Assembly: GCA_024274785.1 (NCBI GenBank)
Contig: JAJSAM010000042.1
Coordinates: 147,103 to 211,102 of the forward strand
DNA length: 64,000 nucleotides
Direction: 5' to 3'
Source of the DNA: Planctomycetota bacterium
GTDB lineage: Bacteria > Planctomycetota > JAJSAM01
Position 1 is the first letter of the stretch. Every line of letters starts with the position of its first letter. Below the pieces are notes generated by a model. That model did no database searches. It saw only the letters and a program-made list of their open reading frames with translations, and was not told where the DNA came from. Shown here one piece after another: positions 22,631 to 29,989 of this stretch. Position numbers and translations under genes: made by a program.

Positions 22631-22686
22631 GGGCTCGCGCGTGACCGCGGCTTGCGCCCTGGTGAGAATGGCAGACGGAGCGGGGG

Positions 22687-22710
22687 GAATCTCCCGTTCG
22701 CGGGGGATTC
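22687..22710. promoter_or_regulatory. Imperfect dyad upstream of the sigma-54 promoter (possible enhancer site)
   Basis: GAATCTCCC (22687-22695) and GGGGGATTC (22702-22710) form a 9-bp inverted repeat with one mismatch and a six-base spacer. It lies about 48-70 bases upstream of the -24 element at 22758. The placement fits an activator-binding dyad; without a T-run it is a poor terminator for the kinase gene. Confidence 0.4.
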
Positions 22711-22757
22711 TTCCTGCATCGGGGGGTGGAAGAGCCAAAGATCCCGGGATTTCGGTG

Positions 22758-22773
22758 CGGCACGACCATTGCT
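22758..22773 (+). promoter_or_regulatory. Sigma-54 (-24/-12) promoter upstream of the first NtrC-type regulator
   Basis: The sequence CGGCACGACCATTGCT matches the sigma-54 consensus TGGCACG-N4-TTGCW except for the first base, with ten bases between GG and GC. Transcription would start near 22784, leaving only about nine bases before the ATG at 22793 and no Shine-Dalgarno sequence. This would make the regulator gene itself sigma-54-dependent. Confidence 0.6.
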
Positions 22774-22792
22774 CAGTCCCGGCCGGTGCCCC

Positions 22793-24184
22793 ATGGCCAA
22801 AGCAAGAATACTCATCGTCGACGACGAGCGCCTGATTCGGTGGACGCTGAAGGAGAAACTCACGGGAGCCGGCCACGCCGTGCGCACGGCTGCGACCGGG
22901 GAGGAAGCGCTCGACCTTCTCACGGAGGAGCCGGCCGAGGTCGTTCTCCTCGACAACCGGCTGCCGGGAATGGATGGGCTCGACGTCCTTCGTCTCATCC
23001 GGGACATGGACGCGACGGTGCAGGTGGTCATGGTCACCGCCTGTGACACCGCGGAGCAGGCCATCCGGGCGTTCAAGGAAGGTGCTCTCGACTACGTCAT
23101 CAAGCCCTTCGACCTGAAGGAGGTGATGTCCGTGGTCGAGCGCGGGATCGACACCGCGTACCTGCGCCGGGAAGTCAGCCACTTCAGGAGGAGGCAGCAA
23201 CAGCGCTTTTCGCTGACTCACATCGTCGGGAAGAGCGAGGTCATCCGGCGGGTGACCCGGACCTGCGGCCGTCTGGCGGCGTCCGATGGGTCCACGGTCT
23301 TCCTGCTCGGAGAGAGCGGGACCGGGAAAGACCTGGTCGCCCGCGCCATCCACCACGCGAGCGCCCGAGCGACGCGGCCGTTCAAGCAGATCAACTGCGC
23401 GGCACTGCCCGAGCACCTCCTCGAGTCCGAACTGCTCGGGTATGAGAAAGGGGCGTTTACGGATGCCAAGGCCCGGAAGAAGGGCCTGGTCGAGATGGCC
23501 GACGGCGGGACGCTGTTCCTCGATGAAATCGGAGACATGCGCCCCGGAATGCAGGCAAAGCTGCTCTCGGTCATCGAGGATAGACGGTTCCGGCGGGTCG
23601 GCGGCCTGGAGGACCGGGCGGTCGATATCCGGGTCATCGCGGCCACGAATCGGGATCTCGACGCGGCCGTTGGTGACGGCAGTTTTCGCGAGGACCTCTA
23701 TTATCGTCTCAACGTCCTGCCCATCGTGCTGCCCCCGCTGCGGCATCGCACCAGCGATATCCCCCTCCTGGTCGAGCACTTCATCCGTCACTTCAACGGT
23801 CTTTACAAGCGGAAACTCCGCGGGATCACTCCGGAAGCCGTGGCGCTGCTCATCGCCTACCCCTGGCCGGGGAACGTCCGGGAACTGAGAAACGTGGTGG
23901 AACGAGCCATCATTCTCGGGGACGACGAGGACATCTCCGCCGAGATGTTGCCGCCGGAAATTCGATCTCCGGTGCCGAAGCCCGTCGGCTACCGGTTTCG
24001 GTTGCCGATGGAAGGTCTGAACCTGGCCGAAGTCGAGGAGGGGTTTCTCCGGCAGGCGCTGGAACTCGCCGTGGGAAACCAGACCCGAGCCGCCGAGTTG
24101 TTGAATCTGAGCAGGGATGCGCTGCGGTACCGGATGAAGAAGTTCGGAATCGCCACCGCGCCCGGAAGTGCGGCCAGGCAGTGA
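22793..24184 (+). CDS. NtrC-family sigma-54-dependent response regulator
   Basis: The 463-residue protein starts MAKARILIVDDERLIRW. The receiver domain (1-120) has acidic residues D10/D11, the phosphorylation site D54 (VLLDNRLPG) and K104 region YVIKPFD. The AAA+ domain (about 143-380) has Walker A GESGTGKD, Walker B-type FLDEIGDM and a GAFTDA loop, a variant of the sigma-54-contacting GAFTGA. A C-terminal Fis-type helix-turn-helix (NQTRAAELLNLSRDALRYRM) binds DNA. It converges on the histidine kinase across a 588-base gap. It closely resembles the second regulator at 26641, so one or both may be its output. Confidence 0.93.
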   Translation: MAKARILIVDDERLIRWTLKEKLTGAGHAVRTAATGEEALDLLTEEPAEVVLLDNRLPGMDGLDVLRLIRDMDATVQVVMVTACDTAEQAIRAFKEGALDYVIKPFDLKEVMSVVERGIDTAYLRREVSHFRRRQQQRFSLTHIVGKSEVIRRVTRTCGRLAASDGSTVFLLGESGTGKDLVARAIHHASARATRPFKQINCAALPEHLLESELLGYEKGAFTDAKARKKGLVEMADGGTLFLDEIGDMRPGMQAKLLSVIEDRRFRRVGGLEDRAVDIRVIAATNRDLDAAVGDGSFREDLYYRLNVLPIVLPPLRHRTSDIPLLVEHFIRHFNGLYKRKLRGITPEAVALLIAYPWPGNVRELRNVVERAIILGDDEDISAEMLPPEIRSPVPKPVGYRFRLPMEGLNLAEVEEGFLRQALELAVGNQTRAAELLNLSRDALRYRMKKFGIATAPGSAARQ

Positions 24185-24772: not shown

Positions 24773-26461
24773 CTATTCCCGGGGCAGGTGGATTGTGACG
24801 GTCGTGCCCACGCCCGGTTCGGACTCGATGGTGAGAGCTCCTCCATGGCCGGTCACGATTTTCCGGGCGATGGTGAGTCCGAGTCCGGTCCCCTTGTTCT
24901 TCGTGGTGAAGAAGGGCTTGAAGATCTTGCGGCGGGTCGCCGATGTCATCCCGGCCCCGCGATCGATGATTCTGATCTCCACTCCGTCGTCCGCCCTCCC
25001 GGTGGCGACCGTGATGGTGCGATCGTCCTTCAGCGCATGGACCGCATTCAAGAGGAGGTTCAGGATGACCTGGATGAGCTGTTGCGCGTCCACCGAGACC
25101 GGACCGAGGTCCGCTGAGTGCTCGATTTCGATCGTCACATCCGAGAAATCGTCGGAGTTTCGGAGCAAGGTGACCGCGGAGTCGAGCACGAGACCCAGAT
25201 CGGTGGTTACGCGCGCCGGACGGAACGGCCTGGTGTAGGAGAGTAGTGAGAGGACCGTTTCATCGAGGCGGCGGATGTGCTTCAGGATCTCGTCATAGAT
25301 TTCGCTCTTCGGGTCGTCGGCCGGGGTGGATTCCGCAATGACCTGGATGGCTCCGGAGATTCCCGCCAGGGGGTTCTTGATCTCATGGGCGATCTGCGCG
25401 GCCATCTCGCCCATCTCCGCGAGAGCCTCGACCTGGATCAACTGCTCGACCATCCGCTTGCGCTCGGTAATGTCCCGGAGGATGGCGGAAGCGCCCACGT
25501 AGCGGCCGTGGGCGTCGTAGATGGAGGTGCGCGTCAGGCTGACGTGGACCTCATCTCCGTTCTTTCGCAGCCGGCGCGTCTCGTAGTTTCGAAGTGATCC
25601 CGCCTCGGACGTTTCGGTGCGGATCTTTTCGATCTCGCCCTGCCGGAGCAGTTCGTCGGGGACCAGGAACTTGAAGTGCCGGCCCACCGCCTCCTCGGCC
25701 GGGTAACCGAGCAATTCCTCCGCACCCCGGTTCCACGACTGAATGACCTCGTCCTCGCCCACCGTGAGGATGGCATCCGCCGAGTCCTTGAGAATCCGGG
25801 CCAGGTAGGCCGAGGATGCGTACGCCTGCTCCCAGAGCCGCGTCATCGTTGGCTTCATCCGATCGGTGAGGGGGAGCCCCTGGCGGAGCGCCTCCACCTT
25901 GCGCGCCAGGCCGGGGTAGCGTTCGGCGGGGAAGATCTCGAAGCGGCAGGTCTCGTCACCCTGGGCGCGGCACATGGTCTCGATGCAGACCAGCGACGCT
26001 CCGACCGCCTCCGAAGCATAGCCGGATGCGTAGCCGGTGAGGATCCAGCAGGAGGACCACTCCACCGGTCCGAGGAGCGCCAGGCTCTGCTCTGCTTCCA
26101 CGGAGTCTTCCCAGAACCCGGTCATCTTGTGGAAGTCCGGATCGCATTGGAGTTCGTCGACCCGGGCCCGGGCCATCCCCTCCAGGTTGTGTACGAGAGG
26201 GCCGGCCCGCAGCAACTCGCGGGGATCGGGGTCGCCCATGCGCTCTCTCATGACGCGGGCGGTGTGCGCACCGTCATGGAAGCCGAACCGGAACATGACC
26301 TCGTGGGCCATGACGGGCCCGAGAACCTCGTAGAGCTCCTGGCGTAACTTCCCGAGCGCATCCGCCGACAGGAACAGGATCCGCTCCTCGCGGTGGAGAA
26401 TCCGTGCCCCTTCGGAGGTGGGCCCGGGGTTTTCTTCGGGGGTCGGGCGGGGGGGTGTCAT
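24773..26461 (-). CDS. Histidine kinase with XylR_N/V4R aromatic-sensing domain, PAS, HisKA and HATPase
   Basis: The 562-residue kinase has four parts. Residues 20-190 are an XylR_N plus V4R sensor module, the type that binds phenols in the activators DmpR and MopR. Putative pocket residues H91 (LVHNLEGM) and W117 (GFWEDS) are present, and C138, E161, C164 and C172 match the MopR zinc ligands with identical spacing (23, 3 and 8 residues). Residues 218-335 are a PAS domain (DSADAILTVGEDEVIQSWN). HisKA follows with the phospho-acceptor H359 in AHEIKNPLAG. The HATPase has LNLLLNAVHA, DRGAGM and GTGLGL. No transmembrane segment is seen, so sensing is cytoplasmic. It lies between two NtrC-type regulators, convergent with one and divergent from the other. 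The ligand class is inference from conserved residues. Confidence 0.9.
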   Translation of the reverse strand: MTPPRPTPEENPGPTSEGARILHREERILFLSADALGKLRQELYEVLGPVMAHEVMFRFGFHDGAHTARVMRERMGDPDPRELLRAGPLVHNLEGMARARVDELQCDPDFHKMTGFWEDSVEAEQSLALLGPVEWSSCWILTGYASGYASEAVGASLVCIETMCRAQGDETCRFEIFPAERYPGLARKVEALRQGLPLTDRMKPTMTRLWEQAYASSAYLARILKDSADAILTVGEDEVIQSWNRGAEELLGYPAEEAVGRHFKFLVPDELLRQGEIEKIRTETSEAGSLRNYETRRLRKNGDEVHVSLTRTSIYDAHGRYVGASAILRDITERKRMVEQLIQVEALAEMGEMAAQIAHEIKNPLAGISGAIQVIAESTPADDPKSEIYDEILKHIRRLDETVLSLLSYTRPFRPARVTTDLGLVLDSAVTLLRNSDDFSDVTIEIEHSADLGPVSVDAQQLIQVILNLLLNAVHALKDDRTITVATGRADDGVEIRIIDRGAGMTSATRRKIFKPFFTTKNKGTGLGLTIARKIVTGHGGALTIESEPGVGTTVTIHLPRE

Positions 26462-26640
26462 GGGCCTTCATCTTCCCGGATTGCAAGAGCGGGGATGGCG
26501 GTCTGTCAGGCATTCCATCTTCGGGGCGAATATACCGTCCCCGGGACCCAACTGCGGGAAATCCCCCGAATTCCAGAAATAGGCTACATGGGGAATGGCG
26601 AGGAGGCTATCCTCGCGCAATTACGCCTGCCGAGGGAACT

Positions 26641-28029
<1,389 letters not shown>

Positions 28030-28052: not shown

Positions 28053-28081
28053 TTGACGCCGCTGGTCGGCCCCCCTACGAT
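28053..28081 (+). promoter_or_regulatory. Promoter of the first universal stress protein, leaderless arrangement
   Basis: TTGACG (28053-28058) and TACGAT (28076-28081) have an optimal 17-base spacer. The -10 hexamer ends six bases before the ATG at 28088, so transcription should begin at the start codon. Confidence 0.6.
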
Positions 28082-28087
28082 TGCGTC

Positions 28088-28594
28088 ATGGACCTGGAAA
28101 TCCACCTGAAGAAGATCCTCGTGCCCATGGACTTCTCCGAGTACGCGGAGCATGCTTTCCGCCACGCCACGGCGATCGCCAGGTGGACCGGCGCGGAGAT
28201 GCTGGTGCTCCACGTCGTCGAGAAGTTCATGGATCACTCCCTCCTCTACAGCGACGTATGGCCGTTCCAGAAGCCGGTGAAGCAGTACTACCAGGAACTG
28301 GAGGAGAGGACCGCGCGTCGACTCGAGGAACAGGTGAGCCTGGTGGTCGGACCGGACATCGGCTATCGGGTCATCGTCAGCACCGGCACGCCGTCGCCGG
28401 AGATCGTCGCCACCGCGGCCCGGGAGAGCGTGGATCTCATCGTCATCGCCACGCATGGCCGCGGAGGTCTGCGGGCCGCTCTGCTCGGGTCCACCACCGA
28501 CCGGGTCCTGCACAAAGCCACCTGCCCGGTGCTGGTCATGCGCAGTGGAGCGTCCGGTTTCGTCAGCCCGAAGTCGGAAGAACCCGGGAACTGA
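28088..28594 (+). CDS. Universal stress protein (UspA family)
   Basis: The 168-residue protein has the UspA fold: KKILVPMDFSEYAEHAFRHA at the N-terminus and the nucleotide-binding loop THGRGGLRAALLGSTTDRVL near the C-terminus. Compared with the ATP-binding consensus G-2x-G-9x-G-S/T, the first glycine is replaced by alanine (IATHG), while the rest fits. Members bind ATP and help cells survive starvation, oxygen limitation or toxic compounds. It directly follows the second NtrC-type regulator and has its own strong promoter. No Shine-Dalgarno sequence precedes the ATG. Confidence 0.9.
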   Translation: MDLEIHLKKILVPMDFSEYAEHAFRHATAIARWTGAEMLVLHVVEKFMDHSLLYSDVWPFQKPVKQYYQELEERTARRLEEQVSLVVGPDIGYRVIVSTGTPSPEIVATAARESVDLIVIATHGRGGLRAALLGSTTDRVLHKATCPVLVMRSGASGFVSPKSEEPGN

Positions 28595-28638: not shown

Positions 28639-28654
28639 TGCTGACAGTTCGGCA
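28639..28654. promoter_or_regulatory. Inverted repeat upstream of a sigma-54 promoter (possible enhancer site)
   Basis: TGCTGA-CAGT-TCGGCA is an inverted repeat with one mismatch. It lies about 80-95 bases upstream of the -24 element at 28732, the distance typical of NtrC-family enhancer sites. Which of the two nearby regulators would bind cannot be told from sequence. Confidence 0.4.
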
Positions 28655-28731
28655 GAACTTCTCCGGGCTCCAGAGTGTCGGTATTGATGTAAGTGCTTGC
28701 AAATGAATGTGTTGTGGTTTTCGTGGTCGAC

Positions 28732-28747
28732 TGGTACGGTGCTTGCG
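28732..28747 (+). promoter_or_regulatory. Sigma-54 (-24/-12) promoter between the two universal stress protein genes
   Basis: TGGTACGGTGCTTGCG fits TGGYACG-N4-TTGC with exactly ten bases between the GG and GC pairs. Predicted transcription start is near 28758. The next coding gene starts 170 bases further on, and a terminator hairpin lies between. Confidence 0.65.
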
Positions 28748-28757
28748 CATTCCCGGG

Positions 28758-28855
28758 CAGCCCTGAAGCACCGGGCCTCGCCCAAGGCCCACGGCAGTAC
28801 TCTCAATCCTGCCTCTTTGAAGGGGGCCGGTTTCCCACCGGCCCCCTCTCCTTTC
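28758..28855 (+). ncRNA. Candidate sigma-54-dependent small RNA with three stem-loops
   Basis: The segment from the predicted sigma-54 start to just past the terminator hairpin is about 100 bases and has no plausible coding frame. It contains GGGCCT/AGGCCC (28773-28778 with 28785-28790), GGCAG/CTGCC (28793-28797 with 28809-28813) with an 11-base C/U-rich loop, and the terminator stem AGGGGGCCGGT/ACCGGCCCCCT (28821-28847) followed by CTCCTTTC. The layout resembles known RpoN-dependent small RNAs. An alternative is a terminator or attenuator in a long leader of the second stress-protein gene. The elements are seen; the RNA itself is inference. Confidence 0.45.
28821..28847 (+). terminator. Intrinsic terminator-like hairpin upstream of the second stress-protein gene
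   Basis: AGGGGGCCGGT (28821-28831), loop TTCCC and ACCGGCCCCCT (28837-28847) form a perfect 11-bp stem, followed by CTCCTTTC. It stands 84 bases before the next start codon and would stop transcripts from the sigma-54 promoter. Confidence 0.65.
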
Positions 28856-28895
28856 GGTTGTCCACCGCCGGAATGCCCCCGCCGCCAGTGTGGTC

Positions 28896-28924
28896 TTGCG
28901 GCGTCATTCACGCCGTCGTATCCT
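28896..28924 (+). promoter_or_regulatory. Promoter of the second universal stress protein, leaderless arrangement
   Basis: TTGCGG (28896-28901) and TATCCT (28919-28924) are 17 bases apart. The -10 hexamer ends six bases before the ATG at 28931. This gives the gene its own start downstream of the terminator hairpin. Confidence 0.55.
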
Positions 28925-28930
28925 CTGCCC

Positions 28931-29377
28931 ATGAGTTCGATCCGGTTGCAGCGTATTCTGGTGCCCACGGACTTCAGTGACACCTCGGAGAAAGCGTTCC
29001 TGTTCGCGGCCGACCTGGCCCGGGCGTTCGGTGCGGAGATCACCCTTCTGCACGTGGTGGACACCAGAGTGGTGGACAACATTTTTCACATCCACCAGAT
29101 GCCGCCGGAGGCTGCCCGGCGTGAGATGCGGAAGGCGGCCGGGGAGGCGGTCGCGCGGCTCCTCGATCTGCCCGAGGCCGAGGGCCTTTCGATCACCGCC
29201 GTCTACTCCGAGGGGATTCCCCCGGTGGAGGTGAAGAAGGCCGCCGAGGAGATCGACGCGGACCTGATCGCCATGGGGACTCACGGCACCACCGGTATCG
29301 CCCATCTGCTTTACGGCAGTACCGCCGACGCGGTCTTGCGGGGAGCTCCCTGTCCCGTATTGACCGTCAATCCCTGA
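28931..29377 (+). CDS. Second universal stress protein (UspA family)
   Basis: The ATG at 28931 is chosen because it opens the UspA domain (RLQRILVPTDFSDTSEKAFL); upstream in-frame starts run through the terminator region. The 148-residue product has the complete ATP-binding loop GTHGTTGIAHLLYGS, matching G-2x-G-9x-G-S. It is a diverged paralogue of the protein at 28088-28594. The mobA gene follows after three bases, so the two may be co-transcribed. Confidence 0.9.
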   Translation: MSSIRLQRILVPTDFSDTSEKAFLFAADLARAFGAEITLLHVVDTRVVDNIFHIHQMPPEAARREMRKAAGEAVARLLDLPEAEGLSITAVYSEGIPPVEVKKAAEEIDADLIAMGTHGTTGIAHLLYGSTADAVLRGAPCPVLTVNP

Positions 29378-29380
29378 CGC

Positions 29381-29989
29381 GTGTCCGGGCAGGATTCTGA
29401 TCCCCTGGTCGGCGCGATTCTCGTCGGTGGCGTCTCCCATCGGATGGGGCGGGACAAGGCCCTGGTCGAGATCGGCGGCATCTCTCTCGCGGAGTGGGTG
29501 CGCCGTTCGCTCGCCGAAGTGGCTTCTCCTGTTCTGGTGGTGGGGAAGAACGGGGAGCGTCATCCCCTGCCCGACTTGCCGTTCGTGGGCGAGGATTGCC
29601 CAGCGCGGTGCTCGCTCGCCGGTCTGGTTGCCGCGCTGTCGGCTGCGCCGGACGACCGGGTGATCGTGGTCGGCTGCGACCATCCCTTTCTCTCGCCCGA
29701 TCTGCTTCGAGCGCTGGCGAAGCGCGGAGACAGAGCGGTTCGCGTGGCGGGGCGGGGCGGTGGCCTCGAGCCACTTCTCGGCTGCTGGGATGCGCCCCGG
29801 GCCCTGCCCGTCCTGAGCCGGCGGCTGCAAGACGGTGCTCTTTCGCTCTACGGCGCACTTCGGGAGCTTTCCGCGGAGGTCCTGCCGGAGATCGAGGCCC
29901 GGGCGCTCGACCCTGACCTGCGTTCGTTCGTCAACGTAAACACGCCGGAGGATCTTGCGCGCGCCCGGTGTTCTCTCGAAAAGTATTGA
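29381..29989 (+). CDS. mobA: Molybdenum cofactor guanylyltransferase MobA-like
   Basis: The 202-residue protein belongs to the MobA nucleotidyltransferases. It has the GTP-binding start VGAILVGGVSHRMGRDKALVE (a variant of LAGGxSxRMGxDK), CSLAGLVAAL, and the metal-binding VVGCDHPFL in place of the usual CDxP. It ends with VNVNTPEDL, a family hallmark. MobA attaches GMP to molybdopterin. Start is GTG at 29381. No other Mo-cofactor genes are nearby. Confidence 0.85.
   Translation: MSGQDSDPLVGAILVGGVSHRMGRDKALVEIGGISLAEWVRRSLAEVASPVLVVGKNGERHPLPDLPFVGEDCPARCSLAGLVAALSAAPDDRVIVVGCDHPFLSPDLLRALAKRGDRAVRVAGRGGGLEPLLGCWDAPRALPVLSRRLQDGALSLYGALRELSAEVLPEIEARALDPDLRSFVNVNTPEDLARARCSLEKY

Follow-up and report, generated by a model that had tools for sequence, protein, structure and literature searches.

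A candidate sigma-54-dependent small RNA gene between two universal stress protein genes of a planctomycete

Between two universal stress protein genes of a Planctomycetota genome we identified a compact unit of sigma-54 promoter, conserved transcript body and terminator that is probably a free-standing small RNA gene (28758-28856, forward strand; positions refer to the window, the whole 64-kb stretch of DNA analysed), transcribed by sigma-54 RNA polymerase under the neighbouring NtrC-type regulator and silencing messages by base pairing. In the mechanism that we propose, the kinase encoded at 24773-26461, with its XylR_N/V4R sensor part, would be the partner of the regulator encoded at 26617-28029, and sigma-54 RNA polymerase would transcribe the RNA when that regulator is active, starting near 28758 as judged by promoter spacing and ending at an 11-bp terminator. 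Unpaired C-rich segments of the transcript would then pair with target messages at their G-rich ribosome-binding regions, and this action would be independent of Hfq. The interpretation offered by a first-pass annotation of the same DNA was partly supported overall; it had also put forward that RpoN and the regulator control the RNA, that the RNA pairs with ribosome-binding sites and that aromatic or nitrogen stress is involved, and these steps we infer.

The window comes from a genome of 83 contigs that is 90% complete (G000). The gene order at the locus is an NtrC-type regulator gene (22652-24184, forward strand), a sensor histidine kinase gene (24773-26461, reverse strand), a second NtrC-type regulator gene (26617-28029, forward strand, from a putative start codon), usp1 (28088-28594, forward strand; PF00582, E 3.1e-34), the RNA unit, usp2 (28931-29377, forward strand; PF00582, E 2.4e-35), a MobA-like gene and a polyprenyl synthase gene, the last named by eye without a family search. 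Pfam searches confirmed that both of the nearby genes previously read as NtrC-family activators are of this type, and the second, the presumed activator, is a response regulator with receiver, sigma-54 AAA+ and Fis-type HTH domains. In translation both regulators have GAFTDA in place of GAFTGA, the canonical motif for contact with sigma-54. The kinase comprises XylR_N, V4R, PAS, HisKA and HATPase_c domains. XylR_N and V4R, which sense ligands, are thus joined to PAS-HisKA here; they are more familiar as the N-terminal part of XylR-type activators.

When usp1 was searched against 84,980 species, each represented by a single genome, two loci were recovered, both in Planctomycetota MAGs that represent two other genera of the window's family: Prado167 (G001, locus L031) and GMC4.metabat2.66 (G002, locus L032; hereafter GMC4). 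Identities of 72, 72 and 75% for usp1 and 57, 60 and 61% for usp2 place the three genera at roughly equal distances from one another. In GMC4 the C-terminal end of a like regulator gene precedes usp1, followed by a 271-bp gap, usp2, a polyprenyl synthase gene and a folD-like gene (all named by eye). The MobA-like gene that separates usp2 from the polyprenyl synthase gene in the window (29381-29989) is missing at that place in both relatives. The GMC4 gap carries the unit at the syntenic place, with a sigma-54 site, GCCCTGAA, the hairpin GAGGGGCT-CTGCCCA-AGCCTCTC, the linker CTCATTCCTACCTC, also C/U-rich, and, as terminator, GGGGGCCGGCC-GCGC-GGCCGGCCCCC. Prado167 has the same genes around a 75-bp gap that lies within one contig and contains neither a sigma-54 site nor the RNA, and in G003, another genome of the order, a convergent usp-like gene comes after the best match to the regulator (61% identity), and inspection by eye showed no such unit. 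The unit is missing in one of three genera and is thus either dispensable or recent.

The -24/-12 promoter of exact spacing that had been proposed ahead of the RNA was borne out, in that the pattern TGGYACGNNNNTTGC has a single mismatch-free occurrence in the 64-kb window, on the forward strand at 28732-28746 (TGGTACGGTGCTTGC). Across the genome there are six exact matches, compared with three for a reversed control pattern, so that by itself the site is no more than mildly unusual and it is its position and conservation that make the case. The equivalent GMC4 site, TGGCATACCAGTTGC (L032 933-947), lies at the same place and agrees with 9 of the 11 specified consensus positions. TGG-N9-TGC occurs once per gap in the window and GMC4 alike, in each case as the sigma-54 site, and does not occur in the Prado167 gap. 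GG-N10-GC sites are present in both copies, and the distance from the -12 element to the conserved 5′ segment is 14 bases in the window and 13 in GMC4; the promoter block taken by itself is weakly conserved, at z 2.1 when aligned freely, which also misplaces the -12 element. Another exact sigma-54 site of the genome (contig C81, 11742-11756; L030) lies about 80 bp after a match to the NtrC-type regulator (C81, 10300-11661) and precedes a reading frame that by eye is lysine-/alanine-rich and repetitive.

The 99-nt segment 28758-28856 has a predicted folding energy of -43.5 kcal/mol (z -3.69; none of 200 shuffles folds as well), of which the terminator, being part of the segment, must supply much. 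Close to its predicted start the RNA has a conserved 5′ segment, GCCCUGAA (28760-28767), which is identical in GMC4, mostly unpaired in both predicted folds and a candidate seed. Hairpin 1 follows (28773-28790), with a 6-bp stem GGGCCU/AGGCCC and the loop CGCCCA in the window and with 8 bp and the loop CUGCCCA in GMC4; it presents GCCCA, and GCCC is conserved both here and in the 5′ segment. The second stem, GGCAG/CUGCC with an 11-nt loop (28793-28813), overlaps a C/U-rich linker, CUCAAUCCUGCCUC (28802-28815), whose GMC4 counterpart is CUCAUUCCUACCUC and whose conserved sequence, CUCAnUCCUnCCUC, is a candidate anti-Shine-Dalgarno segment, predicted to be open in the GMC4 fold and partly sequestered in that of the window. 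Both of the further stems described in the first-pass annotation thus exist in the window, but the second is absent from the GMC4 fold, although the C/U-rich sequence itself is conserved. The terminator stem-loop (28821-28847) was upheld as a structure, its perfect 11-bp stem (28821-28831 with 28837-28847) lying about 75 bases beyond the sigma-54 site and recurring in GMC4 with another loop; perfect stems of at least 11 bp with loops of 3-8 occur twice in the window, compared with once in total over ten Markov controls. Its tail, CTCCTTTC, is however a poor U-tract, and a simple terminator scan of the window did not include 28821-28847 among its results.

Block-by-block alignment of the window with GMC4, with 500 shuffles for each block, placed the conservation within the predicted transcript: 42 of 58 aligned positions are identical in the RNA body before the terminator (z 5.6) and 23 of 30 in the terminator block (z 3.7), with the flanks at chance both upstream of the promoter (z 0.6) and after the terminator (z 0.6). 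These values bear on the suggestion that the segment simply belongs to usp1, as its 3′ end with the terminator, the sigma-54 match being due to chance, a reading consistent with our having noticed no other terminator between usp1 and usp2 and with a promoter pattern that is genome-wide just twice as frequent as its control. The region right after usp1 is not conserved, however, whereas the sequence from the 5′ segment onward is; GMC4 has a sigma-54 site at the same place, and Prado167 has neither site nor RNA. We regard an origin as a usp1 trailer as very improbable. Covariation was assessed in a two-sequence alignment made by hand and guided by structure, in which the consensus of hairpin 1 has six pairs, one of them altered on both sides in a compensatory way (C-G to G-C) and another on one side only (G-C to G-U); of the ten pairs in the terminator consensus, one is altered on both sides (U-A to C-G). 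With the terminator left out, a single column shuffle in 500 reached a fold as good as that of the consensus. The two sequences lend the predicted hairpin modest covariation support, and automatic alignment puts the two hairpins one base apart in register. The conservation of promoter and stems that the first-pass annotation had looked to in close relatives is therefore found for the promoter, hairpin 1 and terminator in GMC4 but not for the second stem, nor in Prado167, which is without the RNA.

The segment had also been described as free of coding frames. The predicted RNA has no start codon within its first 60 nt, the earliest being TTG at 28817, but one reading frame is open across the segment, from TTG 28697 through usp2, which would allow a small protein to be encoded there. 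The two copies differ by indels of 1 and 2 bases, and GMC4 has no start codon before L032:1050; the indels and the first 60 nt argue against protein coding, a reading that we rejected as scarcely credible.

The same open frame, and the position of the unit directly ahead of usp2 on the same strand, would also suit a sigma-54-driven leader of usp2, in which the hairpin acts as an attenuator that lets transcription through under some condition. The weak U-tract of the terminator fits such a leader, and so does the weakness of the promoter that usp2 has of its own: the element TTGCGG-17-TATCCT (28896-28924, forward strand), found by eye, agrees with 7 of 12 consensus positions and was not among the results of a promoter scan of the window. 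An independent promoter for the next gene, claimed previously, can therefore be retained only as a weak element, but like elements stand at the same place in both relatives (by eye, TTGCCC-17-TATCCT in GMC4 and TTGTCA-17-TAGTCT in Prado167, each 8 of 12, with CGTATCCT identical in GMC4). The positional conservation of this weak promoter behind the terminator in all three genomes argues against a simple usp2 leader. In addition, no competing anti-terminator appears in the two predicted folds (folded up to the terminator tail), and the sequence beyond the terminator, taken in its entirety, is at chance (z 0.6). We consider a usp2 leader rather unlikely and prefer a free-standing RNA gene. The -10 elements of usp1 (TACGAT) and usp2 (TATCCT) each end 6 bases ahead of the start codon (28053-28090 and 28896-28933, respectively), so both messages may be leaderless.

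The longest word common to the regions upstream of the unit in the window and GMC4 is CTGACAGTTC (28641-28650, forward strand), which we regard as a candidate activator site. It lies about 112 bp ahead of the predicted start in the window and 124 bp in GMC4, a difference of 12 bp that corresponds to roughly one helical turn; the GMC4 copy (L032:829-838) overlaps the usp1 stop codon. As a control for chance, a shared word of at least 10 bases occurred in 3 of 400 Markov pairs. The word was not found in the stretches of Prado167 (L004) or G003 (L023) that were examined, and a search of the window for a second copy, which might have indicated autoregulation at the start of the kinase or regulator gene, found none.

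A sequence model of the unit from promoter to terminator start (R1), built from the two sequences, was run on 392 Planctomycetota genomes, sampled from a larger phylum, with stricter filters applied in the scoring. The known copies scored 94 and 83 bits and nothing elsewhere exceeded 18.3 bits; 27 of the 392 genomes gave something at E≤0.05, where about 20 would be expected by chance. A less filtered search of the nine genomes of the order gave nothing else above 17.7 bits and at most 14.7 bits in Prado167. With nothing convincing elsewhere, the unit is known from two of the three family genera compared. A DNA-level search of 58 other genomes found no match to the intergenic stretch, a blunt result since it missed even the GMC4 copy. 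We rejected a repeated element, because within its own genome the intergenic stretch matches nothing but itself. The earlier statement that the RNA is not a known Rfam family was confirmed, as none of 4227 families reaches its gathering threshold on either copy: the best sub-threshold scores are 17.9 bits for the window stretch and 19.6 bits for the L032 stretch, with cut-offs of 72 and 46, respectively. The only Rfam match in the full window is a tRNA. The planctomycete papers retrieved on small RNA, Hfq or noncoding RNA mention no such RNA in title or abstract opening. We conclude that the unit is a predicted small-RNA gene of narrow distribution.

The protein components of the proposed mechanism were sought in the same genomes. 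In the window genome, 11 places match the NtrC-type regulator at E≤1e-100. The sigma-54 DNA-binding domain (PF04552) was not found in this 90% complete assembly but is present in all eight other genomes of the order, and the core-binding domain (PF04963), sought in the window genome only, was likewise not found there; rpoN is probably missing through an assembly gap. Hfq (PF17209) was found in none of the nine order genomes (G000-G008), in a search whose control recovered it in 5 of 14 known genomes.

Searches for target messages gave no candidates. Predicted duplex energies with seven gene starts of the window and three of GMC4 were not clearly better than those of shuffled RNA, the lowest fraction being 0.07 (GMC4 usp2). 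Complements of the linker were not enriched (22 places with at most one mismatch, two of them the RNA genes themselves, compared with 35 for the control), and neither were those of the 5′ segment (118 places, again including the two RNA genes, compared with 118). Among 52 of these 140 places, comprising all 22 and 30 of the 118, no target common to both genomes emerged, and the only related pairs were the RNA locus itself and a weak one, L129/L088, which joins places of two different patterns. With the target searches empty, the pairing step would rest on analogy.

Decoys of the CsrB/RsmZ type carry the CsrA motif, GGA, in repeated copies. By eye, GGA does not occur before the terminator in either copy, so there are no CsrA-type sites, a point against the RNA being a decoy that titrates an RNA-binding protein through its unpaired GCCC and CCUNCC motifs in the manner of CrcZ. 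The retention of GCCC in both the 5′ segment and the hairpin loop would fit a decoy, as would the precedent of CrcZ, whose activation likewise depends on sigma-54 together with an NtrC-type regulator (PMC8657755). Just two or three short motifs are present per 100 nt, however, and the order yielded no Hfq, and we hold a decoy to be quite improbable; silencing by base pairing is the reading that we carry into the comparisons below.

The arrangement is predicted to resemble that of proteobacterial two-component systems in which an NtrC-type regulator is coupled to a sigma-54 small RNA, as for CrcZ, Qrr, NrsZ and GlmY. The crcZ gene adjoins cbrB, and CrcZ is longer than the RNA described here. 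In Pseudomonas, the sigma-54 promoters of CrcZ, CrcY and CrcX are activated by the NtrC-type two-component system CbrAB, and CrcZ and CrcY antagonise Hfq-Crc (PMC8657755). The likeness lies in small RNAs, sigma-54 promoters and NtrC-type activation, here predicted from sequence; the present RNA differs from CrcZ in its length of about 100 nt, in having no Hfq found, in belonging to another phylum and in matching no Rfam family. Qrr RNAs are near 100 nt in size and Hfq-dependent, LuxO is an NtrC-type regulator that works with sigma-54, and qrr1 neighbours luxO. In Vibrio the Qrr RNAs are activated by the response regulator LuxO and are present in several copies per genome (PMC7602753). The RNA described here has one copy and again no Rfam match, and it is further set apart from Hfq-dependent RNAs of the Qrr and GlmY type by the lack of a detected Hfq in its order. 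Sigma-54 takes part in the transcription of Qrr and NrsZ. GlmY (QseEF/GlrKR) and NrsZ (NtrBC) are likewise small RNAs activated by two-component systems (PMC7602753), from which the present RNA is set apart by having no match in the Rfam searches. For the pairing step, the nearest parallel is with the alpha-r14 RNAs and NfeR1 of Sinorhizobium, in which unpaired C/U-rich anti-Shine-Dalgarno motifs (CCUCCUCCC) silence a message through pairing in its start region (PMC10746234). In those RNAs the motifs stand in three hairpin loops, whereas UCCUnCCUC occurs here once per RNA, and NfeR1 has LsrB as its activator and NtrC as its repressor.

To our knowledge, almost no regulatory RNAs have been described in Planctomycetota. 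The table of a 2022 survey gives eight distinct small-RNA families for the Planctomycetes-Verrucomicrobia-Chlamydiae group (PMC9029176). That the unit founds a new, lineage-restricted Planctomycetota RNA family, in which a XylR_N/V4R kinase and its regulator switch on a sigma-54 RNA for Hfq-free anti-Shine-Dalgarno silencing, is a tentative possibility. If true, Planctomycetota would have a counterpart of Qrr and CrcZ that works without Hfq, and the pairing of an NtrC-type regulator with an adjacent sigma-54 small RNA, known from Proteobacteria, would extend to this phylum. With its promoter, conserved body, covarying hairpin, terminator and neighbouring presumed activator, the candidate makes it possible to test concretely whether pairing-type regulation operates where Hfq is lacking.
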